The notes under the pieces: model-generated | What the model was told of the DNA's origin: nothing | What the model saw: only the letters and a program-made list of their open reading frames with translations | Database searches by the model: none | Virus record (IMG/VR): IMGVR_UViG_3300028569_000018 | Location: 38,469-102,468 of that record | Source: a virus | Direction: 5' to 3' (one strand) | Length of the DNA: 64,000 bases | Translations under genes and position numbers: made by a program | Part shown: in pieces, positions 3,386-63,586 of the stretch | How the letters are laid out: the number at the start of each line of letters is the position of its first letter | Numbering within the stretch: position 1 is the first letter of the stretch

Positions 3386-3925
3386 ATGAAACTTTCGAAA
3401 ATTGTAAATGAGATTCTATTAGTTGAACGGGTATTAACTCTAATCACCCCGGACGATAGAAAAAAGTATTTAGATGTTGTATGGGATATTCTGCAGAAAT
3501 CATACGAGAAAATCGGCGGGTTTAAATCAGTACCGAATAAAGAAGCTCTTATACCAGAAACAAATATTTGGAAGCTAGTACGTAAAGGTAATAAAATTGT
3601 CGCTGTCGGACTATATTCTAGTAAAAGTGGTAGAAAGTGTATAGGCTCAGGTACTGACGGGTCGCCTGAAGGTAAAGCTGCACTGTTACAAATGTGGCTA
3701 GATGATACTAAACAAAATAGGTCGTGGGGAGAAGTATCCGGGGCGGCTGAACATATCAAGTTAAAACAGGGCTATAAAGTTATACCGAATAAGTATGCAT
3801 CTCAGATACTTAACAAAGACATATTGTCATTGAATCCAGACGGTGTACATTACACGAGATATATTGGAGGAGCACCGCATGAAAAACTTCTAACGGGACA
3901 CGTGGAGGGATTAAACTTGGAGTAA
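3386..3925 (+). CDS. Hypothetical phage protein
   Basis: 179 residues, not recognised. It opens with MKLSKIVNEILL, followed by an acidic-basic helical region and a mixed alpha/beta part rich in glycine (GSGTDGSPEGK at about residues 86-96). The general look could fit a small transferase such as GNAT, but I see no acetyl-CoA signature. An AT-rich box (ATATTTATTA) abuts the ATG. The following gene was separated from its promoter by a homing endonuclease element. Confidence 0.6.
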   Translation: MKLSKIVNEILLVERVLTLITPDDRKKYLDVVWDILQKSYEKIGGFKSVPNKEALIPETNIWKLVRKGNKIVAVGLYSSKSGRKCIGSGTDGSPEGKAALLQMWLDDTKQNRSWGEVSGAAEHIKLKQGYKVIPNKYASQILNKDILSLNPDGVHYTRYIGGAPHEKLLTGHVEGLNLE

Positions 3926-3945
3926 TCAAATTAATTTCTTATCTT
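3917..3945 (+). promoter_or_regulatory. Promoter now separated from its gene by a homing element
   Basis: TTGGAG 3917-3922, 17-base spacer, TATCTT 3940-3945, then 6 bases and ATG 3952. This is a perfect copy of the window's main promoter, but the ATG it serves now opens only a 4-codon reading frame. The -35 lies inside the end of the upstream gene. Confidence 0.7.
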
Positions 3946-3951
3946 TATAGT

Positions 3952-3966
3952 ATGAGCAAGATTTAA
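3952..3966 (+). pseudogene. Displaced start of the esterase gene (4-codon remnant)
   Basis: ATG AGC AAG ATT TAA reads MSKI-stop. The intact gene after the homing element begins ATG TAC AAG ATT, reading MYKI. The shared ATGNNCAAGATT suggests that the element entered at the gene's 5' end and a new start was supplied on its far side. The match is short, but a similar remnant occurs at the dpdA insertion. Confidence 0.5.
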
Positions 3967-4062: not shown

Positions 4063-4896
4063 ATGAATTACCAAAGAATCTATAACCAGATAATAGAACG
4101 TGCCCAATCGGAGGTTAGTGAACGAATATTACATAAAAAGAATGGTGGATATTACGAAGGACATCATATTATTCCGAGATGCATGGGCGGGGAGGGCGAA
4201 TCTTGTAGTTGGCTACGTAAGGGGCAACATTATCGACATCCGAACATAGTAGGTCTAACTGCAAGAGAGCATTTTCTATGTCATTGGTTATTAATTAGAA
4301 TATACACTGATAATCATAGTATAGCATATGCATTCAAAAATATGTGCAAAAACTATAACAAGAGTTACACAGATTTTGTTCCTTCAAGTAGAATGTATGC
4401 CGAAGCCCGCGCACATTTAAGTATGTTAGGGCACTCGCATATGACCAAGTTACGTATGTCTACTAGTAGGAAAAATATGTCTACCGAAAATAAGAGTAAA
4501 ATAGCTCTAGCAGTGAGTTTAGCTCAAAAGGGTATTCCAAAAAGTACTGCGGTTTGTTCATACTGTGATGGTGAATTTGCCGTGAATATTATAGGTCGAT
4601 ATCATATGGATAATTGCAAGCACAAACCGGGTAATGAAGGCGTTATTCGTCATCATTCACCAGAACATCAAAATAATTTATTCGGACCAAAACCGATTGT
4701 TACCTGTCCACATTGTGCCAAGACCGGTGGCGCGAATAATATGTTTCGATATCATTTTGATAAATGTCGAAATAAGCCCGGTAATGAATTATTAACACAT
4801 AAATTAAAACGTATTGAATGTCCACATTGTTTAACATCTATAGGAGTTAATCGTGTATGGAATCATTTTGATAATTGTAAACAAAATAAAAAATAA
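4063..4896 (+). CDS. HNH homing endonuclease with zinc-finger tail (HEG1)
   Basis: Free-standing homing endonuclease, 277 residues from ATG 4063 (MNYQRIY); an earlier in-frame start at 4009 lies inside the RNA element. The HNH motif EGHHIIPRCMGG is near residue 30, followed by NIVGLTAREHFLCH, typical of this phage HNH family. The C-terminal half is an array of three CxxC...HxxxC fingers (CSYC, CPHC, CPHC units ending in HMDNC, HFDKC, HFDNC), two followed by KPGNE linkers. The N-terminus is shared with the HEGs at 10482 and 28840; the finger arrays differ, which fits modular target recognition. The ORF ends 4 bases before the esterase start. Confidence 0.88.
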   Translation: MNYQRIYNQIIERAQSEVSERILHKKNGGYYEGHHIIPRCMGGEGESCSWLRKGQHYRHPNIVGLTAREHFLCHWLLIRIYTDNHSIAYAFKNMCKNYNKSYTDFVPSSRMYAEARAHLSMLGHSHMTKLRMSTSRKNMSTENKSKIALAVSLAQKGIPKSTAVCSYCDGEFAVNIIGRYHMDNCKHKPGNEGVIRHHSPEHQNNLFGPKPIVTCPHCAKTGGANNMFRYHFDKCRNKPGNELLTHKLKRIECPHCLTSIGVNRVWNHFDNCKQNKK

Positions 4897-4900
4897 TAAG

Positions 4901-5491
4901 ATGTACAAGATTGTATATATACATGGGTTTGGGTCGTCGGGTGAATCTGAAAAGGCCCAATTATTACGTAAAGCATTTCCAAATGATAACGTGATATCTC
5001 CTAGTTTTTCAGCAAACCCATTAGTAGCCGTTAGTCAATTACACAAAATTCTATCATCCGGTCCAGTCCCTACTATAGTAATAGGTACATCATTAGGTGG
5101 TTTCTATGCCACATATTTAGCCGTTAGATACGATGTTCCGGCATTTATTATTAACCCTTCATTAGAGCCGCATATTACATTACAATCATACATAGGAAAG
5201 CATAAACGTTACGGTAATAGTACAGACACGGATTATGATTTTCAAGCACCATATATAGACGAGCTTAAAAAGTTGTTTGATAAAATGCATGCATCTGATA
5301 AAGCCGGTAGTAATTTACATTTTTATCTATCTACCGATGATGATGTATTAACATACGAAAAGCTAGATACACTGTTTCCAAATAGACAGCACGTAAAAAC
5401 CTTTAATAATTCCGGGCATAGGTTTTCCAAATTCTCAGAAATATTTCCGGATATTCAGAAAGCGTTAGATAAATTCCCAAAAAAGAAATAA
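4901..5491 (+). CDS. YqiA-like alpha/beta-hydrolase (esterase)
   Basis: 196-residue alpha/beta hydrolase of the YqiA/UPF0227 type. It opens YKIVYIHGFGSS (oxyanion region), has the nucleophile elbow GTSLGG at residues 62-67 (Ser64), an Asp-rich turn STDDD, and a late His in NSGHRF. Such enzymes cleave esters or act on acyl groups; the phage substrate is unknown. ATG 4901 is preferred because the upstream extension is the HEG in another frame. The gene's original promoter appears to be at 3917-3945, on the other side of HEG1. Confidence 0.75.
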   Translation: MYKIVYIHGFGSSGESEKAQLLRKAFPNDNVISPSFSANPLVAVSQLHKILSSGPVPTIVIGTSLGGFYATYLAVRYDVPAFIINPSLEPHITLQSYIGKHKRYGNSTDTDYDFQAPYIDELKKLFDKMHASDKAGSNLHFYLSTDDDVLTYEKLDTLFPNRQHVKTFNNSGHRFSKFSEIFPDIQKALDKFPKKK

Positions 5492-5492
5492 T

Positions 5493-5521
5493 TTGGTAAG
5501 GTAATTAATATTCCTTATATT
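5493..5521 (+). promoter_or_regulatory. Promoter, TTGGTA-N17-TATATT
   Basis: TTGGTA 5493-5498, 17-base spacer, TATATT 5516-5521, followed by a 30-base leader containing AAATAAATAAG before ATG 5552. Confidence 0.65.
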
Positions 5522-5551
5522 TAGATATTGTTAATTTCAAATAAATAAGTT

Positions 5552-5794
5552 ATGAAAACTGTAAAAAAGGGTACTGAATACAAACGCGTATCAGACACCG
5601 AAGCCTACCATCTGGTAGAATTTAAGGGTTGGAACTTTGCTAGTAAAGAAGAATGGAAGAAAAATGTTAGAGACGAAGGTAAGGCCGCCCCAGTAACGGC
5701 GCCTGGTCAGGCTCCTGATAGAAATCCTACAACAGACACTCCGGTACCTGTTAAGGAAAAGAAACCGAAAAAGGATAAAAAAGACAAGAAATAG
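5552..5794 (+). CDS. Small basic-tailed hypothetical protein
   Basis: 80 residues. The first half (KGTEYKRVSDTEAYHLVEFKGWNF) looks like a small folded domain. The second half is a Pro/Ala/Thr linker and a Lys-rich tail ending KEKKPKKDKKDKK. Such tails suggest contact with nucleic acid or acidic protein surfaces. It has its own promoter. No family is recognised. Confidence 0.6.
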   Translation: MKTVKKGTEYKRVSDTEAYHLVEFKGWNFASKEEWKKNVRDEGKAAPVTAPGQAPDRNPTTDTPVPVKEKKPKKDKKDKK

Positions 5795-10481: not shown

Positions 10482-11297
10482 ATGAATTACCAAAGAATCT
10501 ACGATTCGATTATCAATAACGCAAAGTTATTAGAAGAGTCAAGAAAATTACAAAAGAAGCAGAAACTTAATTATTTCGAACGACATCACATTTTACCGAA
10601 ATGTTTGGGTGGTAATAATGATGAAAGTAATCTAGTTTATCTAACGGCAAAAGAGCATTATCTTTGTCATCGATTATTAGTTGAAATATATCCTGAAAAT
10701 AGAAAGTTGAAATATGCTATTTGGTTAATGGTAAGCGGATATAGTATAACCAAACAACGATACATCCCTTGTAGTAGAATATATGAGCAAATTAAACGAT
10801 TACATGCAGATAATGTAGCCGCTCAATTTATTGGTAAGCCCAAATCTATTGAACATCGCAAGAAATTATCTGATAGCAATATCGGCAAAACATTATCGAT
10901 TGAACGTAGATTGAAAATGTCCAATACGCTACGTGGTATGAAGAAGTCCGAGGAGACTAAACGTCGGATGACTAAACCGAAGCCAATTGTTACTTGTCCG
11001 CATTGCGGAGTAACCGGGGGCAAAAATACTATGGTCCAATGGCACTTTGATAACTGTAAATCACTGCCCGGTAATGAACACATACATGATATTAGAACTA
11101 ATACATTACATGAATGCCCGAAATGTGGTATAAAAAGTACAGCATTATCAAATATGGTTCGATATCATTTTGAAAATTGCGGAAAGAAAGTTGATTTACG
11201 AAAATGTCCATATTGTGGAAAAGAAATGGATGCTAGAAATGCTAAGAAGTATCATTTCGATAATTGTAAGTTAAAGAATTTGGTAATTGTAAGATAA
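10482..11297 (+). CDS. HNH homing endonuclease with zinc-finger tail (HEG2)
   Basis: 271 residues. N-terminus MNYQRIYDSIINNAK and HNH motif ERHHILPKCLGGNN, then NLVYLTAKEHYLCH. Middle repeats (SIEHRKKLSD, SEETKRRM) resemble NUMOD-type DNA-binding segments. The tail has three fingers: CPHC...HFDNCK, CPKC...HFENC and CPYC...HFDNCK. The first 80 or so residues are nearly identical to HEG5 at 28840, so the two are recent relatives. It sits at the 5' end of dpdA, whose displaced start remains upstream. Confidence 0.9.
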   Translation: MNYQRIYDSIINNAKLLEESRKLQKKQKLNYFERHHILPKCLGGNNDESNLVYLTAKEHYLCHRLLVEIYPENRKLKYAIWLMVSGYSITKQRYIPCSRIYEQIKRLHADNVAAQFIGKPKSIEHRKKLSDSNIGKTLSIERRLKMSNTLRGMKKSEETKRRMTKPKPIVTCPHCGVTGGKNTMVQWHFDNCKSLPGNEHIHDIRTNTLHECPKCGIKSTALSNMVRYHFENCGKKVDLRKCPYCGKEMDARNAKKYHFDNCKLKNLVIVR

Positions 11298-11326
11298 ATT
11301 GTTATATTAGAAAAATAAATTAAACT

Positions 11327-12565
11327 ATGACCGTATACCCTAAAATGCAATACTATCCGAGCTTTTCGACCGGCGAATTTGCAAACGACTGTAAAGACCC
11401 TAATAAGTTACTAGGAGGTAAACTTACTCCAAGATTCTACTCCAAAGAATTCCCCCAAGAATTTCAGCATCCATACTTCCTATTAACTGCGGGTCACTTA
11501 TATAAGAAAATGGATATCCGCAAAACGATGGGCCTGGAGGATGCTCTAGTAATGGGTGATTCTGGTGGATATCAAATTGCAATGGGTGCAATGAAATGGG
11601 ACATGTCCGTTAGACAGCAAATATTTGAATGGCTAGAAGCTAACTCAGATATTGCTATGAATATAGATATTCCACCCTACGGAGACATGACCGGTAAATT
11701 TGACGAATGTATTGATATCAGTTATGATAACTTTAAGTATTTCGAAAAAAATCAGACAGGCAAAACTAAGTTCCTGAATGTGATTCAAGGTAATAACTTC
11801 CAGCAACGTCTTAAATGGTACGATAAGGTTAAAGACTTTGAATTCAAAGGTTGGTCATGTGGCGGGTGCCGTCTACCATATAGATTAGCGGCTAATATGA
11901 CTGCCCTAATTGAAGGTAAAGAACACTTAAAGGACCGCAACGAATATCTTCACATATTAGGTACGACAAAAATATCAGATTTCTTCTTCTTATCACAATT
12001 ACAGAAATCATTGGTAGAAGTAGGTTCTAAAATGCGAGTTACAACTGATTCAAGCTCACCATCTCGGTCAGTAGCATTCGGATTGTATTATGTCGGTGCA
12101 AACCTTAATCTGGATACGTTTAAATCATTACATATTCCAAAAGCAATTTCTACTAATAAGGCGTTTGTTGCTCCGGATTGTTTACAAACAATCTTACCGC
12201 ATCAACTAGATATGCCAATGCCAGCATCAACAGAATTTGATAAAATTATCAAAGGAATGTATACATATGGTGACTGTGTGAATAATCTTAATGATAGCAC
12301 AATGTTCATGACGTTGCATAATTTTATGCTATATCAGGATGTACAAACTGTAATTGCTGACTTCGTATATCATCATGACTATTTGCTTGAGCAAGTAACA
12401 TCAAAAGATACATTCCACGTAATGCGAATATTAGATGAGATTATTAAGAGTGATAATCCGAGAAAGGTTCTACTGAAAAATGAATCGTATCTAATCGGAT
12501 TGTCGACAGTAATCAATAATTCAACAGTTAAAGATAATAGTATTTCAGAATTTTTCACAGTATAA
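11327..12565 (+). CDS. dpdA: DpdA-like DNA guanine transglycosylase (TGT family)
   Basis: 412-residue homologue of queuine tRNA-ribosyltransferase. Visible: MGDSGGYQIA (residues 76-85, Asp78 as in the TGT DSGGFQ substrate-binding site), MNIDIPPYGD (111-120, Asp114 as probable nucleophile), LNVIQGN, WSCGGCR and HILGTTK. The C-terminal CxCxxCx...H zinc site of tRNA TGTs is not seen, which fits the phage/dpd DNA-modifying branch. It would exchange guanine in DNA for a 7-deazaguanine made by FolE, QueD and QueE. TATATT just after HEG2 (about 11302) gives it a new promoter. Confidence 0.8.
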   Translation: MTVYPKMQYYPSFSTGEFANDCKDPNKLLGGKLTPRFYSKEFPQEFQHPYFLLTAGHLYKKMDIRKTMGLEDALVMGDSGGYQIAMGAMKWDMSVRQQIFEWLEANSDIAMNIDIPPYGDMTGKFDECIDISYDNFKYFEKNQTGKTKFLNVIQGNNFQQRLKWYDKVKDFEFKGWSCGGCRLPYRLAANMTALIEGKEHLKDRNEYLHILGTTKISDFFFLSQLQKSLVEVGSKMRVTTDSSSPSRSVAFGLYYVGANLNLDTFKSLHIPKAISTNKAFVAPDCLQTILPHQLDMPMPASTEFDKIIKGMYTYGDCVNNLNDSTMFMTLHNFMLYQDVQTVIADFVYHHDYLLEQVTSKDTFHVMRILDEIIKSDNPRKVLLKNESYLIGLSTVINNSTVKDNSISEFFTV

Positions 12566-17182: not shown

Positions 17183-17211
17183 TTGGAATTCTAAATAATT
17201 TTACTTATCTT
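17183..17211 (+). promoter_or_regulatory. Promoter, TTGGAA-N17-TATCTT, 6 bases before ATG
   Basis: TTGGAA 17183-17188, 17-base spacer, TATCTT 17206-17211, AATAAC, ATG 17218. Model example of the probable leaderless promoter. Confidence 0.75.
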
Positions 17212-17217
17212 AATAAC

Positions 17218-18243
17218 ATGAAGTCAATATACATTGTCGATTTAGAGAGCATGGAAAGCCGTTATACAGTTGAATGGAAATGGCATTTGCCTGAGTTACT
17301 TAAAGAACATTTATATTCTACAAATAATGATGAATATTATGTAGAAGTTATAGAGGGTGATAATAATATCCCTGAAGCTACTACACCGGGTGCATTTATA
17401 AATTTTGGTGGAACTAATATTTATAAATCATCACAATTAATTAAGATTGCAAAATTATTCTGTGAAGGAAAAATAGTACCCGGTAGTAAATTTCTATACA
17501 CTGATGCGTGGAATCCTACTATATTACAAGTTAAGTACATGAGTGAGCTATTAGGTATTCCTGTTGAACTCCACGGAATATTTCACGCGGGTTCATACGA
17601 CCCTCAAGATTTTTTAGGGAGACTAATTGGTGATAAACCCTGGGTCAGATATACAGAACGTGCTCTAATGTATTCATTAGATTATAGTTGGTTTGCGACT
17701 AAGTTCCATAAAGATATGTTTACTAATGTCTTTAATCCGTATCCAAAACATTTAATGATAGGTGGATTGCCGTTTGAGTATTTAAAGGAGATTATCAAAC
17801 CTGCACCGAAAAGAGATTTGATTTTATTTCCACATAGATTAGCACCCGAAAAACAGTTACCGGTATTCAAAGCTTTAGCTGAAAGAATGCCCCAGTTTGA
17901 ATGGGTAGTATGTCAGGAGAAAAATCTAACAAAAGAAGAGTATCATAAATTACTGGGAGAAGCTAAAATAGTATTCTCAGCAAATCTTCAAGAAACTTTG
18001 GGGATTAGTTGCTATGAAGGCGCGCTCGCTAATGCTATCCCATTAGTTCCGAACAGATTAAGTTACACCGAAATGTATACGGATACATTTAAGTTTAAAT
18101 CGGATAGTTTGGATGATATGGAAGCTAAAATATTGGATGTAATGAATTACTATCCAGATTACGTTGAAGAATTACCAAAACTAATAGATAAGCTGCAAGA
18201 GTTTTTCTGTGCAGATAAAATGCTTGCTAAATTAACTAGTTAA
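17218..18243 (+). CDS. GT-B glycosyltransferase
   Basis: 341 residues. The C-terminal domain shows the GT4-like donor-site pattern NLQETLGISCYEGALANAIP followed by LVP; an earlier LFPHRLAPEKQ resembles the domain-linking R..xEK motif. No membrane segment. Overlaps the polymerase start by 1 base, so it leads the replication operon. Acceptor unknown. Confidence 0.75.
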   Translation: MKSIYIVDLESMESRYTVEWKWHLPELLKEHLYSTNNDEYYVEVIEGDNNIPEATTPGAFINFGGTNIYKSSQLIKIAKLFCEGKIVPGSKFLYTDAWNPTILQVKYMSELLGIPVELHGIFHAGSYDPQDFLGRLIGDKPWVRYTERALMYSLDYSWFATKFHKDMFTNVFNPYPKHLMIGGLPFEYLKEIIKPAPKRDLILFPHRLAPEKQLPVFKALAERMPQFEWVVCQEKNLTKEEYHKLLGEAKIVFSANLQETLGISCYEGALANAIPLVPNRLSYTEMYTDTFKFKSDSLDDMEAKILDVMNYYPDYVEELPKLIDKLQEFFCADKMLAKLTS

Positions 18244-24840: not shown

Positions 24841-24869
24841 TTGGATAATTGAAATTAATTTCTTATCTT
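24841..24869 (+). promoter_or_regulatory. Promoter, TTGGAT-N17-TATCTT, 6 bases before ATG
   Basis: TTGGAT 24841-24846, 17-base spacer, TATCTT 24864-24869, AATAAT, ATG 24876. Confidence 0.75.
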
Positions 24870-24875
24870 AATAAT

Positions 24876-25130
24876 ATGAAGAAAACTAACGAAGAAATAA
24901 TTGAATCGTTTCGTTCCTACAAACGAACTAATACGGCAGGCTTTACAAATAAAGAACTGGCTATTTTATGTGAACAATCCGGCGTGGATGTAAAGAAATT
25001 AAACGAAGAGATTGGTGTAGTTACTGTTATGCTTATAAATAACGAGTCTGTAATATATGAGTGGGACGTAATGCCCGCATTACAACGTACATTAACAGGA
25101 GAAAAACAGCACCCATTAGCTTGGGACTAA
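24876..25130 (+). CDS. Small hypothetical protein
   Basis: 84 residues from ATG 24876, exactly six bases after the promoter box; an upstream TTG at 24849 lies within the promoter. Helical N-terminus (NEEIIESFRSYKRT) and a possible small helix-turn-helix (FTNKELAILCEQSGVDVKKL). Regulatory function possible but unproven. Confidence 0.6.
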   Translation: MKKTNEEIIESFRSYKRTNTAGFTNKELAILCEQSGVDVKKLNEEIGVVTVMLINNESVIYEWDVMPALQRTLTGEKQHPLAWD

Positions 25131-28450: not shown

Positions 28451-28479
28451 TTGGTTTCTTCAAGTAATAATCTTATATT
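28451..28479 (+). promoter_or_regulatory. Promoter, TTGGTT-N17-TATATT
   Basis: TTGGTT 28451-28456, 17-base spacer, TATATT 28474-28479, 22-base leader to ATG 28502. Confidence 0.65.
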
Positions 28480-28501
28480 AAATACATAATAAAGCAGTTA
28501 T

Positions 28502-28726
28502 ATGATAATACCATCAATAGGCGGTACACCGCCCGAACCAAAGCAAATTGATTTCTCCAAAACGACCGATATTCTATGCGAATGCGGAAACGATGTATTC
28601 ATGCCGATGATGAAGTTTAAGAACTTATCAGCAATTGCAAGTCCTAACGGTAAAGCAGGTATAATTCCTTGTGAATGCTACGTTTGTACAAAATGTGGTA
28701 ACATACCTCCGGAATTAGATATATAA
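28502..28726 (+). CDS. Small zinc-ribbon protein
   Basis: 74 residues with two knuckles, CECG near residue 26 and CYVCTKCG near residue 60, forming a probable zinc ribbon. N-terminus is a Pro-rich leader (IIPSIGGTPPEPKQ). Nucleic-acid binding or structural role is possible. Followed directly by the HEG5 RNA element. Confidence 0.65.
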   Translation: MIIPSIGGTPPEPKQIDFSKTTDILCECGNDVFMPMMKFKNLSAIASPNGKAGIIPCECYVCTKCGNIPPELDI

Positions 28727-28839: not shown

Positions 28840-29781
28840 ATGAATTACCAAAGAATCTACGATTCAATTATCAATAATGCAAAGTTATTAGAAGAATCAA
28901 GAAAATTACAAAAGAAACAAAAGCTAAATTATTTCGAACGACATCATATTCTACCAAAATGTTTGGGTGGAAATAATGATAAAAGTAATCTAGTTTATTT
29001 GACTGCGAAGGAACATTACTTGTGCCATCGACTACTTGTCGAAATTTATCCCGAAAATAGAAAGTTGAAATATGCTATTTGGGCCATGATGCGTACAAAT
29101 ACCGAACAACGTAGATACACTCCATCATGTAGAATATATGCTATCATCAGAGAAGAATGGCTTACGGCTTTTATTTTAGATAGAAATACCGTTGAATCCA
29201 AAAAGAAAATATCAGCAGTACATAAAGGGAAAGTCGTATCAGAATCCACCCGAGATAAAATACGTGCAGCCCGTAAATTGCAGATACATTATCCCAAAAC
29301 ATTAGAACAAATTACTAAAACTATTAACACCAAGCGTAGATTGGGCAAGCTGGGGCATTCGGGTGAAACTAAAAGACGTATATCAGCGGCGAAGCTAGGT
29401 GGTAAATATCCGCCCATGACTGCGGAACATAAACGAAAAATACAAACTGCTCTGAAAGGTAAGTTACGCAGTAAGAGTATATGTCCGCATTGTACTAGAT
29501 TAGTATCAACGAATAATCAGTATCATTTTGACCGCTGCAAACGCAAACCCGGGAATGAACATATTATATTTATACGGTGTAGGTCTAAAAAAGAGTGTCC
29601 GTTTTGTAAGTTGATTGTAGATACTGGTAACCGTGTACATTTTGATAATTGTAAGCTTAAGCCGGGGTATGTATATGTTAAACGTCCGGCGATTAAAGTG
29701 ACATGTACATGGTGTAACAAAATTGTCGCAAAAGGTAATAGATATCATTTTGCAAATTGTAAAAAAAATCTTATATTATAG
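28840..29781 (+). CDS. HNH homing endonuclease with zinc-finger tail (HEG5)
   Basis: 313 residues. MNYQRIYDSIINNAK and ERHHILPKCLGGNN as in HEG2. The middle has several NUMOD3-like repeats (ESKKKISAVHKGK, GETKRRISAAKLG, AEHKRKIQTALKGK). Three fingers follow: CPHC...HFDRCK, CPFC...HFDNCK and CTWC...HFANCK. The final codons (LIL-stop) are made by a TTATATTATAG promoter-like sequence belonging to the next gene, so HEG and promoter are fused. Confidence 0.9.
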   Translation: MNYQRIYDSIINNAKLLEESRKLQKKQKLNYFERHHILPKCLGGNNDKSNLVYLTAKEHYLCHRLLVEIYPENRKLKYAIWAMMRTNTEQRRYTPSCRIYAIIREEWLTAFILDRNTVESKKKISAVHKGKVVSESTRDKIRAARKLQIHYPKTLEQITKTINTKRRLGKLGHSGETKRRISAAKLGGKYPPMTAEHKRKIQTALKGKLRSKSICPHCTRLVSTNNQYHFDRCKRKPGNEHIIFIRCRSKKECPFCKLIVDTGNRVHFDNCKLKPGYVYVKRPAIKVTCTWCNKIVAKGNRYHFANCKKNLIL

Positions 29782-40479: not shown

Positions 40480-40751
40480 AAATAGGATTTATAGTCACCG
40501 CACATTACTCAAATGAATATAGACCGAATGGTGATAAATTCTTAGGTAATTTTATTACATCATTACGTGAAAGTATGGAGTGTCCATACTCGCTGTACAT
40601 AATCGATAATGGGTCGTCAAACATGCTTACAATAGATGACACATCTATTACTACGACAATACGGATAACCGACCAGACTCAGGAAGGTATCACAGGAGCA
40701 TGGAATACCGGTCTGGTGGACTTCTCTAATCAAGTAACTTTGGTTGATTAG
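40476..40751 (+). pseudogene. GT2 glycosyltransferase, truncated N-terminal piece
   Basis: 91 residues: IGFIVTAHYSNEYRP, YIIDNGSSN and GITGAWNTGL are the first three GT2 blocks; the DxD and acceptor parts are absent. The reading frame ends inside the promoter of the next gene (the -35 TTGGTT is the last codons), so the C-terminus was probably replaced when the downstream sugar-gene module arrived. Confidence 0.65.
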
Positions 40752-40768
40752 TATATTTTTCTTATATT
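40740..40768 (+). promoter_or_regulatory. Promoter, TTGGTT-N17-TATATT, 6 bases before ATG
   Basis: TTGGTT 40740-40745, 17-base spacer, TATATT 40763-40768, ACAGTT, ATG 40775. Confidence 0.75.
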
Positions 40769-40774
40769 ACAGTT

Positions 40775-41953
40775 ATGAATAGAATAGAATTTTTAGATTT
40801 AGGCAAGCAGCCAATCGCTAATAGGTTTGTATACGCTAATGAAGTTGGTGATGAATATTTTTATCATCTACGAGTTGGTATGGACTCTGATACTAAGTTA
40901 ATCACTCATATGGAATATGTAGATTCGCCAATGATGTTTAACGAAAATTATGCATACAGGGGGTCGATGTCCAGAACGATGGTTAATCATTTTGCTGATT
41001 TTAGTAATACTATTAAAGCCGCTATATCGCCGAAAAATGTGTTAGAAATAGGGAGTAACGACGGCGTATTTTTAAAAAATTGGTCGAGCGGAACTACATA
41101 CGCCGTCGAGCCGTGTAGTAATTTTGCTAAAGAAACAAATGATTTAGGATATAAGACCTACCATAGTTTCTGGAACGTAGCCCTATCAGAGCAAATCAAA
41201 AAGGAGCATGGTACCATGGATATGGTGTTCGCCGCTAATTGTATGTGTCACATTCCTAATTTGGATGATGCCTTTGAGGCGGTATACAATATATTAAGCC
41301 CTGGTGGTCGGTTTATATTTGAAGACCCGTCGCTTGCTCAAATGCTTAATAGTAATTCATATGACCAGATATATGATGAACATCCACATATCTTTTCAGT
41401 AATCGCGTTGAATAATATATTAGCCCGGCATAAAATGCAAATTGTTAGAGTAGATAACATATCAGTACACGGTGGTTCGAATAGAATATACGCGGCTAGA
41501 ATAGAAGATAATGTAAAAGTTGAATCAAGTGTTCAAGATAACATTACATTTGAAACTATTATGGGGTGTGATAGTTTGATAGAATTAGGACAATTTGCCA
41601 GACGCGTTTTACAATCTAGTAACGATTTATATGCGTTGTTAGCTAAATGTAAAAATGCTGGTAAGAAAGTTATTAGCTATGGCGCCACATCAAAATCAAC
41701 TACCGTATTCAATTATAGTGGTATTGACCCGGAATTAATATCATATGTTATAGATATAACACCAGAAAAGATTGGTAAGTTAACTCCGGGCAGTCATATA
41801 CCTATTGTAAATGAACCGCGAATACCTAATGATGTGGATTATGCATTTTTAGGTGCATGGAATTTTGCCGCGGAAATATCAAAAAAAGAGTCGGAATTTA
41901 TACAGCGCGGAGGAAAATTTATCACCCATGTACCAATTGTAAAATTTATATAA
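40775..41953 (+). CDS. Sugar C-methyltransferase (NovU/TylC3 type)
   Basis: 392 residues. EFLDLGKQPIANRF is the end of the usual N-terminal zinc domain (its first CxxC is missing), NVLEIGSNDGVFLKNW the SAM loop, ANCMCHIPNLDD motif post II, and the C-terminal Methyltransf_14 domain has YGATSKSTT and LGAWNFAAEI. The family C-methylates NDP-hexoses to give branched sugars. First gene of the nucleotide-sugar subcluster. Confidence 0.88.
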   Translation: MNRIEFLDLGKQPIANRFVYANEVGDEYFYHLRVGMDSDTKLITHMEYVDSPMMFNENYAYRGSMSRTMVNHFADFSNTIKAAISPKNVLEIGSNDGVFLKNWSSGTTYAVEPCSNFAKETNDLGYKTYHSFWNVALSEQIKKEHGTMDMVFAANCMCHIPNLDDAFEAVYNILSPGGRFIFEDPSLAQMLNSNSYDQIYDEHPHIFSVIALNNILARHKMQIVRVDNISVHGGSNRIYAARIEDNVKVESSVQDNITFETIMGCDSLIELGQFARRVLQSSNDLYALLAKCKNAGKKVISYGATSKSTTVFNYSGIDPELISYVIDITPEKIGKLTPGSHIPIVNEPRIPNDVDYAFLGAWNFAAEISKKESEFIQRGGKFITHVPIVKFI

Positions 41954-53321: not shown

Positions 53322-53350
53322 TTGGTAAATTCAATCTTAATCGCTATATT
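53322..53350 (+). promoter_or_regulatory. Promoter, TTGGTA-N17-TATATT, 6 bases before ATG
   Basis: TTGGTA 53322-53327, 17-base spacer, TATATT 53345-53350, TAATAT, ATG 53357. Confidence 0.72.
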
Positions 53351-53356
53351 TAATAT

Positions 53357-53794
53357 ATGGCTGATAATTTATTAGTTCGACGTTTTAAGAATACCGGAAC
53401 GGTACCTAGTACTGTCGACTTCTGGGTATATGACCTAGACTATTCACATAACAGTCCGGTTGCGGTGTACATTGACGTACTCGAAAAAGTTACTACCGAT
53501 TCAGTATTAGCGACGTATAGGAAAGAGAGCCGTGGCGTTAAACACAAGAAGGACGTTCCCGCACCAATTGCTCAGGCGGTACATAAAGTTACTACCAAGG
53601 CTATACGTGATAAGTCGCCCAAACCGACTAAAAAGGTTGAGAAGAAAAAGGTACAAAAAAAGCCAGCAAAACTTATCAAGAAGAGTTCAACCAAAATTCT
53701 TAAGAAGAAACCGGTGGAAAAAAAGAAAGATAAGCCAATCAAATCAACTAAGAAAAACATTAATAAAGTATTTAACCAATTTTTCGGTGATTAA
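53357..53794 (+). CDS. Hypothetical protein with long Lys/Pro-rich tail
   Basis: 145 residues. A small beta domain (FWVYDLDYSHNSPVAVYIDVLEKV) is followed by about 70 residues of KPTKKVEKKKVQKKPAK-type sequence, histone-tail-like, and a final FNQFFGD. Likely binds nucleic acid. Low-complexity DNA gives false ORFs in other frames. Confidence 0.6.
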   Translation: MADNLLVRRFKNTGTVPSTVDFWVYDLDYSHNSPVAVYIDVLEKVTTDSVLATYRKESRGVKHKKDVPAPIAQAVHKVTTKAIRDKSPKPTKKVEKKKVQKKPAKLIKKSSTKILKKKPVEKKKDKPIKSTKKNINKVFNQFFGD

Positions 53795-54638: not shown

Positions 54639-54680
54639 GGGCTACATTTTCGAAAGATTATGTAGCCCTTTTTCATTTTT
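54639..54680 (+). terminator. Rho-independent terminator
   Basis: GGGCTACAT (54639-54647) pairs with ATGTAGCCC (54660-54668), 9 perfect pairs, 12-base loop, then TTTTTCATTTTT. Confidence 0.9.
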
Positions 54681-54712
54681 GGTAGTATAAATATGTATTC
54701 TTATATTTATAG
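54679..54712 (+). promoter_or_regulatory. Promoter, TTGGTA-N17-TATATTTATAG
   Basis: TTGGTA 54679-54684 overlaps the terminator T run; 17-base spacer; TATATT 54702-54707 within TATATTTATAG; 11 bases to ATG 54724. Confidence 0.7.
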
Positions 54713-54723
54713 TAAAGCGGTTT

Positions 54724-55140
54724 ATGAAAAATATTCTAACTAAGTTCTGGGAATTTATTAAGTTACATAAGAAATATGTGTTCTTAATACTACTAACAAT
54801 TATTATAGTATGTGCGGGTATCATTCTATTTGCACCTGCGAAGTCCATGTTTGACGATTTATTAGGACGAAAGGAAATTAAACGTTTAAAAAAAGAAAAG
54901 AGTGAATTGCTTATTATAAGTCAGCAACGATTAGACAGTGCCATATATTATAAGTCCGTAGCTGATTCATATACGAAAAATATTGATAGTTCAAAAACCG
55001 TAACCATTTACATTAAACAAAAGACAGATGAAGAAGTTAATAACATTAGGTTTGCTCCTGTTGATAGCAACATTATCAAGTACACTACCGACCTTGAACA
55101 GTATCTCAGCACAAGGACGCTCGGAACTAACCCCGAATGA
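54724..55140 (+). CDS. Membrane-anchored coiled-coil protein (i-spanin candidate)
   Basis: 138 residues. A short cytoplasmic basic start, one membrane helix (VFLILLTIIIVCAGIILFA, about residues 19-37) and a long helical, charged outside part (KEIKRLKKEKSELLIISQQRL). This N-in topology is that of inner-membrane spanins. The next gene starts inside it in another frame, an arrangement typical of Rz/Rz1 pairs. Spanin function is inferred. Confidence 0.55.
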   Translation: MKNILTKFWEFIKLHKKYVFLILLTIIIVCAGIILFAPAKSMFDDLLGRKEIKRLKKEKSELLIISQQRLDSAIYYKSVADSYTKNIDSSKTVTIYIKQKTDEEVNNIRFAPVDSNIIKYTTDLEQYLSTRTLGTNPE

Positions 55141-57187: not shown

Positions 57188-57216
57188 TTGGTTATATCAA
57201 CAAATTATCTTATCTT
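57188..57216 (+). promoter_or_regulatory. DNA ligase promoter, TTGGTT-N17-TATCTT, 6 bases before ATG
   Basis: TTGGTT 57188-57193, 17-base spacer, TATCTT 57211-57216, AATAAT, ATG 57223. A near-identical 45-base copy lies at about 61910-61953. Confidence 0.78.
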
Positions 57217-57222
57217 AATAAT

Positions 57223-58605
57223 ATGGAAATAAGGGATATATTATTGGAGATTGCTAATGAGTCATCTACCAAACGAAAGATGGAAATTCTTTCTAAATAC
57301 AAAGCAAACCAAACGCTTAAGGATGTATTATATCACGCGAAATCCAAACGGGTCAAATTCTATCTAAAACAGATACCACCGTATTCATCCGCTAATCAAC
57401 CCACAATCGATTTACGAACCGCACTTATAGAACTGAAATATCTTACGTCACGCGAATTTACTGGCGATGAAGCTAGTATGCACTTGGCTGATAACATTCT
57501 GTATCCATTAAGCCCGGACGATGCGTATGTGATTGAGCGTATTATTGACAAAGACTTAAAAATTGGAATGGGCACATCTAATATCAATAAGGTGTTTCCT
57601 AAACTAATCGAAGAGACACCTTATATGGGTGCTAAAGCATATGACCCTGAGTTGGTTAAGCTGTTATTCGATAAGAAAAATGGCGGTGTAGTTAGTCAGG
57701 TTAAAATGGACGGACGCTACTGTAACGCTATTATAGAAGGAGGAACGATTGAATTAGAATCGCGTAATGGTGAGAAAACTCCACTCGAAGGTCTGTTATT
57801 TCTGGAAGAATTAACTGGCTTTCCCGACTGTGTTCTAAACGGTGAATTGACAATTGACAACGTTCCCAGATTTATTAGTAATGGAATTGTAGCATCATTA
57901 GTCAGCATTGGTAAGAAAAAAGTTGAAGGGCTTAATGTTTCAGCAGAAATAGCAAAGTTCGATAGAAAGCAACCGATGTCGTATCAAGAAGCAATGAAAG
58001 CCGTTAGGTTTACCGTGTGGGATACTATTTCAATTGATGAGTACTTCGCAATGTATAGTCCGACAACGTATGACGTTCGATTAGCAAATGCCATCAAGTT
58101 ATGTTTAGGGTGTACAATGGTATCTCCTATAGAAACTAAAATAGTTCACAGTGTTGCGGAAGCAATGGCCGATTTTGAGAAAGGATTGCTTAATGGTGAA
58201 GAAGGTAGAATTCTTAAAACACTTAATGGTGTATGGAAGGATGGTAAACCTAAAAACCAAGTGAAACTGAAAAAGGATATGACAATCGATTTAAAGATTG
58301 TAGGATTCAATTATGGTACGGGTAAGAATTCTGAATGGATTTCTTCATTACAAACTATGAGCTCTGACGGTATTTTAAGAACCGAACCGGGCGGTATTGA
58401 TGAAGACATGATGGAGTATATCACAGCTAACCAGGGTAAGTTACTTGGTACAATTGTAGAAGTTCGATGCTCAGGTGTTTGTCAGGATTCAAAAGGTGAA
58501 TGGTCAACTATGCACCCTAGGTTTGAGAAATTACGTGATGATAAAGATACTGCTAATTCATTGCAGGAATGTATTGATATTGATAAAGCAACCACTTATT
58601 TATGA
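57223..58605 (+). CDS. ATP-dependent DNA ligase (T4 gp30-like)
   Basis: 460 residues. Adenylation site KMDG at residues 161-164 (Lys161), ELESRNGEKTP (motif Ia region), NGELTID (motif III), GEEGRILK (motif IV) and NQVKLKK (motif V). A helical N-terminal domain precedes it and an OB fold follows, as in T4 ligase. Seals nicks during replication and repair. Confidence 0.95.
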   Translation: MEIRDILLEIANESSTKRKMEILSKYKANQTLKDVLYHAKSKRVKFYLKQIPPYSSANQPTIDLRTALIELKYLTSREFTGDEASMHLADNILYPLSPDDAYVIERIIDKDLKIGMGTSNINKVFPKLIEETPYMGAKAYDPELVKLLFDKKNGGVVSQVKMDGRYCNAIIEGGTIELESRNGEKTPLEGLLFLEELTGFPDCVLNGELTIDNVPRFISNGIVASLVSIGKKKVEGLNVSAEIAKFDRKQPMSYQEAMKAVRFTVWDTISIDEYFAMYSPTTYDVRLANAIKLCLGCTMVSPIETKIVHSVAEAMADFEKGLLNGEEGRILKTLNGVWKDGKPKNQVKLKKDMTIDLKIVGFNYGTGKNSEWISSLQTMSSDGILRTEPGGIDEDMMEYITANQGKLLGTIVEVRCSGVCQDSKGEWSTMHPRFEKLRDDKDTANSLQECIDIDKATTYL

Positions 58606-60462: not shown

Positions 60463-60491
60463 TTGGTAATGTCAACTGTATTTCTTATCTT
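60463..60491 (+). promoter_or_regulatory. Promoter, TTGGTA-N17-TATCTT, 6 bases before ATG
   Basis: TTGGTA 60463-60468, 17-base spacer, TATCTT 60486-60491, AAGAAT, ATG 60498. Confidence 0.78.
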
Positions 60492-60497
60492 AAGAAT

Positions 60498-61175
60498 ATG
60501 AAGACATGGATAATAAGTGACACACACGCACAACATTGGTCATTAAGTTTGCCAAAAGAACCAATAGAAACTGTAATACATGCTGGAGATTCTACAAATT
60601 ACAGAGATTTATTTAATAATCAACCAGAATTTGAAAAATTTATAGAATGGTTTGGTGGGTTATCTATTAAGAATAAAGTATTAATAGCAGGTAATCATGA
60701 TACATGGGCTTTAAAAAAGTATAATGTAGATAGAATTAAAGAATTAGGAATTCATTATTTAGAACATGAATATGTGGAATTAGAAGGAAGACTCATATTT
60801 GGAAGTCCTTACACCCCTACATTTGGTCAATGGCATTTTATGAAAGATAGAAGTAAACTATCACAATATTGGGAAGCTTTAACAGATAAAATTGATGTTT
60901 TAGTAACACATGGAGCACCTAAAGGAATATTAGACCTATCCCATAATAGAGAACATAATCTTGAATATTGTGGAGATGGGGCATTAACTAAAGCTGTATT
61001 TAAATTTCAGCCTAAATTTCATGTATTTGGACATATTCATGATTCAGATGGCTGTTTTAATTCAGGGATTACTAAATTATCAGGGAGAGAAACAACATTT
61101 ATTAATGCTTCTTGTGTAACAGATGGTAAATTTAATCAAGGTTGTAGTAGTCATGGTCAAATAATAGAAATTTAA
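60498..61175 (+). CDS. Calcineurin-like metallophosphoesterase
   Basis: 225 residues. Metal motifs: ISDTHAQHW, HAGDSTN, IAGNHDTW, VTHGAPKG and FGHIHDSDG, a complete set. The phosphodiester substrate is unknown. Codon choice differs from the neighbours: every Arg codon I read is AGA, Pro is CCA or CCT, and G/C-ending codons are rare, which suggests recent transfer from an AT-rich source while the promoter is of the phage type. Confidence 0.88.
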   Translation: MKTWIISDTHAQHWSLSLPKEPIETVIHAGDSTNYRDLFNNQPEFEKFIEWFGGLSIKNKVLIAGNHDTWALKKYNVDRIKELGIHYLEHEYVELEGRLIFGSPYTPTFGQWHFMKDRSKLSQYWEALTDKIDVLVTHGAPKGILDLSHNREHNLEYCGDGALTKAVFKFQPKFHVFGHIHDSDGCFNSGITKLSGRETTFINASCVTDGKFNQGCSSHGQIIEI

Positions 61176-61857: not shown

Positions 61858-61909
61858 AGCTGACTGTCTGCATGTCTCACCCGCTCATAACTTTATTCTC
61901 TGCAGGTTT

Positions 61910-61953
61910 TAGACTCGTTTGGTAATATCAACAAATTATCGTATCTTAATAAT
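61910..61953 (+). repeat. Duplicate of the DNA ligase promoter
   Basis: About 45 bases match the region before the ligase gene (57179-57222) with two differences. TTGGTA 61919-61924 and TATCTT 61942-61947 keep the 17-base spacing. The codon six bases after the box is ATA where the ligase copy has ATG. Confidence 0.85.
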
Positions 61954-61974
61954 ATAAAAGAAAAATAGAAATAT

Positions 61975-62100
61975 TTGTTTAAGAATCAAGGTTCTGATAA
62001 TACTTATTGGCATGTTAATGTCGTAATCAATAATACAGTGTATCGTATATTGCATACTTTTGATTATACCGGCTTTGTAGGTGCACATTATAATAAGTAA
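61975..62100 (+). pseudogene. Decayed short gene behind the duplicate promoter
   Basis: The expected start is ATA (61954), followed in frame by K-E-K and a TAG, then an open frame reading KYLFKNQGSDNTYWHVNVVI...GFVGAHYNK to a stop at 62100. The sequence looks protein-like. A TTG at 61975 could still start 41 codons. Best read as a gene that lost its ATG and gained a stop. Confidence 0.45.
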
Positions 62101-62165
62101 TGAGCTAGACCCGGATGGTAATTGGTGTGATAAAACATGCCAGAGTTTCCGGAATAAAGTTCAGC

Positions 62166-62261
62166 ACTTCCTAGTACGGAAGTTATAAAATAAGCACTTA
62201 TAAGGAAGTATTGCCCGGAATTAGTTTTGGGCAATACACCCATGTTTCGGCAATAAACATG
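62166..62261 (+). ncRNA. Run of three hairpins
   Basis: ACTTCC/GGAAGT (62166-62183, loop 6), GTATTGCCC/GGGCAATAC (62208-62237, 9 perfect pairs, loop 12) and CATGTTT/AAACATG (62241-62261, 7 pairs, loop 7). GAGTTTCCGG flanks the group on both sides (62143-62152 and 62265-62274). Candidate structured RNA; no known family recognised. Confidence 0.5.
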
Positions 62262-62321
62262 CTCGAGTTTCCGGTTTGCTTCATTTTGAATATTTTGAGA
62301 AAAAAACTAGCTCAAAGGCTC

Positions 62322-62440
62322 GCGCTACCAAGAGCCGCAGGAATTTTTAGCACGATACTCTAAGTGTCGCCCGTGGGTAAAAAAAGTCGACCTGCTAGAA
62401 ATATCAAAAGAGCTATAATCTTGGCCACTCTTGGTAGCGC
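62322..62440 (+). ncRNA. 13-bp long-range stem with internal structure
   Basis: GCGCTACCAAGAG (62322-62334) is perfectly complementary to CTCTTGGTAGCGC (62428-62440). Inside, GCAGG/CCTGC, CGATAC/GTGTCG and CCC/GGG pairs are possible, and TAGCTC (about 62309) with GAGCTA (about 62410) would form a crossing pair. Such closing by a 13-bp stem suggests one folded domain, RNA or origin DNA. Confidence 0.6.
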
Positions 62441-62472
62441 TAAGTATTGCACTACCCGGGTTTGGTAAAATA

Positions 62473-62508
62473 TTGATAATCAAGGGGGTATAACTAATTG
62501 ATAATCAA
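62473..62508 (+). promoter_or_regulatory. Two TTGATAATCAA palindromes
   Basis: TTGATAATCAA at 62473-62483 and 62498-62508, 25 bases apart, 33 bases before the -35 of the next promoter. Further copies (TTGATTATCAA 63220-63230, TTGATAATCAA 63871-63881) precede the next two promoters. Operator sites for a shared regulator are likely. Confidence 0.6.
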
Positions 62509-62540
62509 GGGCGTTATTTTCTAGATTTCTTACATATTCC

Positions 62541-62569
62541 TTGGTCAATCGGGCACGAATCCTTATCTT
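62541..62569 (+). promoter_or_regulatory. Promoter, TTGGTC-N17-TATCTT
   Basis: TTGGTC 62541-62546, 17-base spacer, TATCTT 62564-62569, AATAAT, ATG 62576. That ATG opens a 9-codon leader (MRNKPYNIC) whose stop overlaps the start of the gene at 62599. Confidence 0.75.
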
Positions 62570-62575
62570 AATAAT

Positions 62576-62605
62576 ATGAGAAATAAACCATACAATATAT
62601 GTTAA
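62576..62605 (+). CDS. Nine-codon leader ORF
   Basis: ATGAGAAATAAACC... ends at TAA 62603-62605, overlapping ATG 62599 in another frame. The same AATAATATGAGAAA start block occurs at 63282-63293. Coupled translation or attenuation is possible. Confidence 0.4.
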   Translation: MRNKPYNIC

Positions 62606-63252: not shown

Positions 63253-63281
63253 TTGTTCGTTTGAACTATAATCCTTATCTT
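63253..63281 (+). promoter_or_regulatory. Promoter, TTGTTC-N17-TATCTT
   Basis: TTGTTC 63253-63258, 17-base spacer, TATCTT 63276-63281, AATAAT, ATG 63288. ATG 63288 opens a 27-codon frame (MRKIDVKRMWNSPSM...) that overlaps the gene at 63314. Confidence 0.72.
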
Positions 63282-63313
63282 AATAATATGAGAAAAATAG
63301 ATGTAAAAAGAAT

Positions 63314-63586
63314 GTGGAATTCGCCCTCGATGAACAATATATTCCCGGGTATATTATGGTTACCGACCTAATAGAATTCCTTAAAGAGAATGACCATTAT
63401 CAGGCTTTGACTATGTTTGAAGATGATGTGAACGTTCGATGGGTGCTACCGATAGCGATGCCCGGACCGGGTTCGCCTGTATGTGTTCCTTTGGCATATG
63501 TACAATCACTGTTTATTATAGAGATACACGGTGCTTATGAAGCCTTTGAATTATTAATATCTAAATATACAATATATGGCAAGTAA
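63314..63586 (+). CDS. Hypothetical protein (GTG start)
   Basis: 90 residues from GTG 63314. EQYIPGYIMVTDLIEFLKEN and MFEDDVNVRWVLPIAMPGPG suggest a small alpha/beta fold. An in-frame ATG lies 15 codons in (IMVTDL), which could be the true start. Overlaps the next gene by 11 bases. Confidence 0.55.
   Translation: MEFALDEQYIPGYIMVTDLIEFLKENDHYQALTMFEDDVNVRWVLPIAMPGPGSPVCVPLAYVQSLFIIEIHGAYEAFELLISKYTIYGK

Follow-up and report, generated by a model that had tools for sequence, protein, structure and literature searches.

Our analysis suggests that a T4-like virus uses promoters of the form TTGG-N19-TAT(C/A)TT, read with the sigma factor of its host, whose transcription start (+1) would fall on the A of the AUG, giving leaderless mRNAs. 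We assign this reading a probability of about 0.82; it is a well-supported prediction from sequence, and it concerns a known kind of gene start that is unusually frequent in these phages. The window analysed, 64,000 nucleotides long, comprises bases 38469–102468 of a 102,468-base virus record (G000). The initial annotation had proposed leaderless messages from recurring boxes at a fixed distance ahead of ATG codons, and this proposal is supported by the published geometry of +1, by a bimodal distribution of distances, by conservation in spite of diverged spacers, and by the open reading frames (ORFs) that follow.

The window encodes a T4-type PolB DNA polymerase and an ATP-dependent DNA ligase, together with clamp-loader and queuosine-pathway genes, and nearly all G000 genes lie on the + strand. 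Its closest named relatives are distant at the protein level (PolB is 39% identical to that of Mel-JY01), and no close relatives were found with the PolB protein alone as query; relatives were recovered with a two-sequence alignment of the G000 and Mel-JY01 PolB proteins. One related fragment, G001, has the same promoter as G000. Since the two have almost no proteins in common, we considered that G001 might be an unrelated phage, and rejected this: its baseplate gene is close to those of Mel-JY01 and Flavobacterium phage immuto, and because this gene matches T4-like relatives including Mel-JY01, G001 probably comes from a related T4-like genome, as a part complementary to G000. For G000 itself we infer a Bacteroidota host, because Shine-Dalgarno-like cores fall below the shuffle level (0.7% of genes versus 2.8% in shuffles) and its genes overall show an excess of A at positions −11 to −13, an A-rich signal likewise reported for Flavobacterium. 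The lack of Shine-Dalgarno sequences had also been taken to agree with leaderless messages; the lack stands, but it lends no support to that reading, because it is equally true of leadered genes throughout the phylum. Mel-JY01 (PP395634.1) was rejected as a Bacteroidota phage, with Shine-Dalgarno-like cores in 32% of its genes; a Microcystis is recorded as its host, its annotation includes a ribosomal protein S21, and other relatives are without such a Shine-Dalgarno level.

The promoter-ATG pattern is real, directional and rigid. TTGG-N19-TAT[AC]TT matches 20 times on the + strand and never on the − strand of the 102-kb record (18 and 0 in the window), as compared with a mean of 0.67 and a maximum of 3 in dinucleotide shuffles. 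With an ATG exactly 6 nt further on, 8 matches were observed (shuffle mean 0.05, maximum 1), and for 8 of 20 promoters to share one ATG offset has P of about 7.5e-9, or 4.5e-7 after correction for 60 offsets. Box gaps of 17, 18, 20 or 21 nt yield almost no + strand matches, making the 19-nt gap strict. The boxes are AT-rich and the genome has about 36% GC, which might favour chance or base composition as the source of the pattern; the strand ratio and the shuffles refute this, and its probability is negligible.

In seven genes of the window, all on the + strand, a predicted leaderless promoter runs directly into the AUG of a real gene. These are gene 17218 (341 aa, unknown; promoter 17183–17220, with TTGG at 17183–17186, TATCTT at 17206–17211 and ATG at 17218), gene 24876 (84 aa; 24841–24878, with TATCTT at 24864–24869, AATAAT and ATG at 24876), a methyltransferase gene at 40775 (40740–40777, TATATT at 40763–40768), gene 53357 (145 aa; 53322–53359, TATATT at 53345–53350), the ATP-dependent DNA ligase gene at 57223 (57188–57225, TATCTT at 57211–57216), a metallophosphoesterase gene at 60498 (60463–60500, TATCTT at 60486–60491) and, near-leaderless at 7 nt, a QueD-like gene at 2895 (2859–2897, TATATT at 2882–2887). 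The intergenic gap before five of the seven is 23–41 nt; at gene 17218 the gap is the promoter itself, as only 36 nt separate the upstream stop from the ATG. Six have no in-frame upstream start and 24876 has only a TTG, while at gene 53357 an in-frame stop lies 6 nt upstream and an alternative upstream start is absent.

All ten sites named in the initial annotation exist, nine with the ATG 6 nt after TAT[AC]TT and 2895 with 7 nt, but not all have the TTGG box or begin a gene. The promoter at 63253–63371 (+ strand) has TTGT as its −33 box, and its ATG at 63288 opens a 27-codon ORF overlapping ORF 63314/63356 in a different frame. The + strand promoter at 62541–62605 precedes a predicted leaderless ORF of 9 codons (62576–62605); the overlap of that ORF's TAA with the start of gene 62599 (ATGTTAA) suggests translational coupling. 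The ATG at 3952 opens just 4 codons. A duplicate of the ligase promoter cassette lies at 61919–61956 on the + strand, with ATA replacing ATG and no long ORF after it; behind this copy, about 600 nt (window 61900–62540) are without a clear gene and may be a decayed gene or an untranslated RNA.

Among G000 promoters, the leaderless share is 8 of 15. At most sites of the TATCTT subclass, AATAAT or a close variant of it separates the box from the ATG. The TATATT subclass is mixed: the ATGs of 40775 and 53357 lie at 6 nt, those of 2895 and of a gene outside the window (L010:13883, promoter at L010:13847) at 7 nt, and the remainder at 16–31 nt. About half of these same promoters, mostly TATATT, are thus ordinary leadered ones, and leaderless messages are predicted by only the other half or so. 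Four of them serve as leadered internal controls on the + strand, each with TATATT, at 5493–5554 (ATG 30 nt away), 11280–11329 (18 nt), 28451–28504 (22 nt) and 54679–54726 (16 nt).

The same division appears across related phages. We collected promoters from G000, G001, three related fragments, immuto and the loci of DNA-ligase, PolB and 17218 orthologs, counting those with the correct 19-nt gap ahead of an ORF of at least 40 codons (n = 137). Distances from box to ATG were bimodal, with 41 at 5–7 nt, 5 at 8–13 nt and 72 at 14–27 nt, while seven wrong gaps pooled gave 11 at 5–7 nt and 21 at 8–13 nt, as chance predicts. After grouping by protein similarity, 31 families were leaderless, 39 leadered and 5 between. 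Such a near-empty zone would arise if genes could do without a leader altogether but otherwise required some minimum length, and it suggests that the shortest usable leader is about 8 nt. Of 49 ATGs at 5–7 nt, 41 start an ORF of 40 codons or more (13 of 15 in G000 and G001), compared with 6 of the 15 at 8–13 nt. A promoter matrix trained only on the leadered promoters of immuto recovered the G000 sites at distances of 6 nt (six times) and 7 nt, then none until 16 nt, and up to 35 nt. The immuto genome (MW353175.1) by itself holds 42 similar promoters (GTTGC..TATATTTAGGTATCAATA), in several of which the spacer contains a hairpin.

One mark of leaderless genes of the TA-like signal class is a −10 box ending 5–7 nt before the start codon, and the predicted leaderless genes of G000 have it. 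In the study of Zheng 2011 (PMC3160421), such genes carry a TA-like −10 signal about 10–12 bp before the start, and the same logic, that a −10 box directly before the start codon implies no 5' UTR, would apply here; the present sites differ in having both boxes at fixed spacing, in being of Bacteroidota type and in preceding phage genes. In F. johnsoniae the −7 box reads T-12 A-11 T-8 T-7 T-6 G-5, with 4–5 nt from TAnnTTTG to the start (PMC6847099). Published Flavobacterium +1 positions lie 6–7 nt after TAnnTT, which would place +1 on the A of these ATGs, with TTGG at −35 to −32 and TAT[AC]TT at −12 to −7.

The claim that the boxes fit the Bacteroidota elements holds in part. Like the primary-sigma promoter of this phylum (−33 TTTG, −7 TAnnTTTG), they have TAnnTT at −12 to −7 and a TTTG-like box near −33 at fixed spacing (TTGG, often TTTGG, N19); unlike it, the TATCTT subclass of G000 and G001 mostly has AA in place of T-6 and G-5, so that the full TAnnTTTG is not matched, and the −33 box is stronger than that of the hosts. 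T-6 and G-5, completing TAnnTTTG, are present in many related phage loci. We therefore class the G000 boxes as a variant of the Bacteroidota −33/−7 promoter, not a strict member. Nor do they resemble the T4 late promoter (TATAAATA, which has no upstream box), since the G000 sites do have one.

Orthologs retain the distance in some lineages and change it in others. The 17218 ortholog in another related fragment (G002; 66% amino acid identity) reads TTTG-18-TTATCTT-TAAGTT-ATG and keeps 6 nt, and the L010:13883 ortholog keeps 7 nt; homologs of 17218 that are more remote are internal to operons and lack this promoter. One gene family (MKEKIKEIL...) keeps 5–7 nt in seven phage loci at 67–100% identity although the spacers have diverged, and four independently annotated immuto genes start 5–6 nt after a box. 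The ligase is leaderless only in G000: relatives with a recognisable promoter have a TTTGGT..TACCTTTG-like form 16–25 nt from the ATG. A relative of the phosphoesterase 60498 in L271 is leadered (17 nt), further families hold both states, and the QueD 2895 ortholog in G002 (82% amino acid identity), with a −10-like box about 19 nt from the ATG, appears leadered.

To compare these phages with host bacteria we used the −7 box alone, because a scan with the strict TTTGGT pattern found zero host matches and was dropped. In a Flavobacterium genome sample 7 of 56 sites lay at 5–7 nt and 0 at 8–13 nt, and in a Polaribacter sample 3 of 53 lay at 5–7 nt; the two peaks seen in the phages thus recur in hosts. 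The leaderless share was 37/148 (25%) in related phage loci versus 10/109 (about 9%) in the two hosts (P = 0.001); in G000 and G001 together it was 13/24, by a stricter motif than the host figure. Enrichment in the phages over hosts is real in direction, its size being approximate because of this stricter motif and because the phage loci are not fully independent. Our host scan is close to the published range of 3.7–13%: leaderless mRNAs make up 5.5% in F. psychrophilum (PMC9723704), 3.7% of B. thetaiotaomicron leaders are under 10 nt (PMC7366714), and leaders exceed 10 nt in 87% of cases in F. johnsoniae (PMC6847099). The phage genes thus share the promoter geometry of this Bacteroidota minority, including the host peak at about 6 nt, and differ in the higher share.

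A classic leaderless message of a phage is that of lambda cI; lambda is also mentioned in PMC3160421. Like the cI message, those predicted here would start at the AUG; unlike it, they would belong not to one repressor but to many genes with a range of functions (ligase, methyltransferase, QueD, phosphoesterase). No paper on leaderless genes in Bacteroidota phages was found in the literature library that was searched.

The sequences show the motif with its strand bias and spacing, the bimodality, the conservation and the switching. As to the actual +1, the use of the host sigma factor and the mode of ribosomal initiation, we propose that host RNA polymerase with the Bacteroidota primary sigma reads a phage-optimised TTGG-N19-TAT(C/A)TT through the boxes at −35 to −32 and −12 to −7. 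With the start codon placed 6–7 nt past the −7 box, at +1, the message would begin on the A of the AUG and would be translated by ribosomes that recognise a 5'-terminal AUG. Genes would shift between this state and a leader of at least about 8 nt, seldom resting between, presumably because very short leaders initiate poorly.

The messages might instead be leadered, starting further upstream by read-through or from other promoters, with AATAAT as a translation signal of the Kozak kind. In F. johnsoniae an A at −3 and at −6 favours translation, and AATAAT provides both; the dense packing of genes in one direction makes read-through likely. Such an account, which we consider quite improbable, leaves unexplained the exact 19-nt gap between TTGG and TATCTT, the exact 6 nt to the ATG and the near-empty zone at 8–13 nt; moreover, the general A-rich signal at −11 to −13 is replaced by the −10 box in these very genes. 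Read-through from upstream genes could still add leadered versions of the same messages, which counts against the leaderless reading. So does the observation, at the ATA copy and at three of the ten listed ATGs, that ATG-like promoter sequence can occur with no gene behind it. Taken further, the ATG would be conserved, initially transcribed promoter sequence (AATAATAT plus G) copied along with the boxes, the real starts lying downstream, as the short frames at 3952, 62576 and 63288 and the ATA or ATT copies in G000 and G001 would suggest. This is highly improbable in view of the excess of long ORFs at 5–7 nt and the lack of any other in-frame upstream start in six of the seven clear genes, and relatives without AATAAT show the same distance.

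A further alternative concerns the polymerase only and leaves the start at the ATG: TATCTT-AATAAT could form a middle class whose reading depends on an activator or sigma factor of the phage. Remodelling of the host polymerase is known from T4-like phages, and this possibility draws on the missing host G-5, the unusually strong −33 box and the nearly fixed sequence from box to start; the absence from the TATCTT subclass of T-6 and G-5, nearly invariant in F. johnsoniae, is also a point against the main reading. Ligase orthologs, on the other hand, keep the TTTGGT..TC element with a canonical TACCTTTG box, and neither sigma70 region 4 nor an Rpb1-type RNA polymerase was found in G000, whose record is a fragment, or in the complete immuto genome, by a search that T4 gp55-like factors would escape. 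We consider a phage factor somewhat unlikely and favour reading by the host sigma.

In G000 and G001 the sequence from box to start is nearly fixed (AATAAT), so that promoter and start codon would make up a single unit of about 38 bp, small enough to fit between neighbouring genes; gaps of 23–41 nt are about the size of the promoter, making compaction a plausible cause. A more speculative proposal, unlikely as a whole, is that the unit TTTGGT..CTTATCTTAATAATATG is a mobile transcription-and-translation start that carries its own start codon and is copied from gene to gene and from phage to phage, leaderless initiation having been selected because it allows expression with minimal gaps or favours phage over leadered host messages. 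Published descriptions treat leaderless messages as rare in this phylum. Should a large number of phage genes be leaderless, their start sites could be read off from promoter position alone, and gene callers could be corrected from the DNA sequence. Bacteroidota, which lack Shine-Dalgarno initiation, would then gain a natural system of matched leadered and leaderless orthologs of one and the same gene.

The 4-codon frame at 3952 may mark an interrupted gene. A promoter of the same family (3917–3963, + strand) precedes ATGAGCAAGATT-TAA, and gene 4901 (4901–5491), with a Pfam match to UPF0227, begins ATGTACAAGATTGTA. Between them lies ORF 4063–4896, whose motif EGHHIIPRCMGG was read as HNH-like; a Pfam search of this ORF gave no match. 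AAGATT is present at both joints of this ORF. Position 3952 is probably the original leaderless start of the UPF0227 gene, split after codon 4 by an HNH-like endonuclease cassette. The relatives available yielded no UPF0227 gene, hence the empty (uninterrupted) site was not seen, and an Rfam search of the window and near 3952 returned no match. ORFs related to 4063–4896, preceded by a comparable stretch of sequence, were noted at 28840 and in the related G002 and G003.

A terminator hairpin was rejected as a general part of the promoter, being present at only 4 of 20 G000 sites. Hairpins, some with T-runs, overlap the −33 box at window 40740, L010:13847, window 12895 and G001 L148:9448, so that an upstream terminator and the next promoter share sequence; at 40740 an 8-bp hairpin with a T-rich tail is the probable terminator of the upstream gene. 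A second promoter-like box, NATATTTAT, has a strand bias of 38:8 in G000 and 20:0 in G001 and stands before many structural genes, in L009 and L010 as well as at scattered window positions (e.g. 33660, 36961); it is a candidate late promoter distinct from the T4 TATAAATA. The full motif had no match in the genome contigs searched, and exact CTTATCTTAATAATATG and TTGG-N18-TTATCTTAATA in viral contigs gave, beyond G001, matches rejected as chance or as terminator/late-promoter look-alikes from other phages. In the viral contigs L030, L036, L066 and others, which belong to other phages, a recurrent GCTTGGC..GCCAAGC-T(n)ATCTTAATATTTAT lies some 40 nt upstream of a gene encoding about 245 aa, and this unit is a terminator followed by a likely late promoter.
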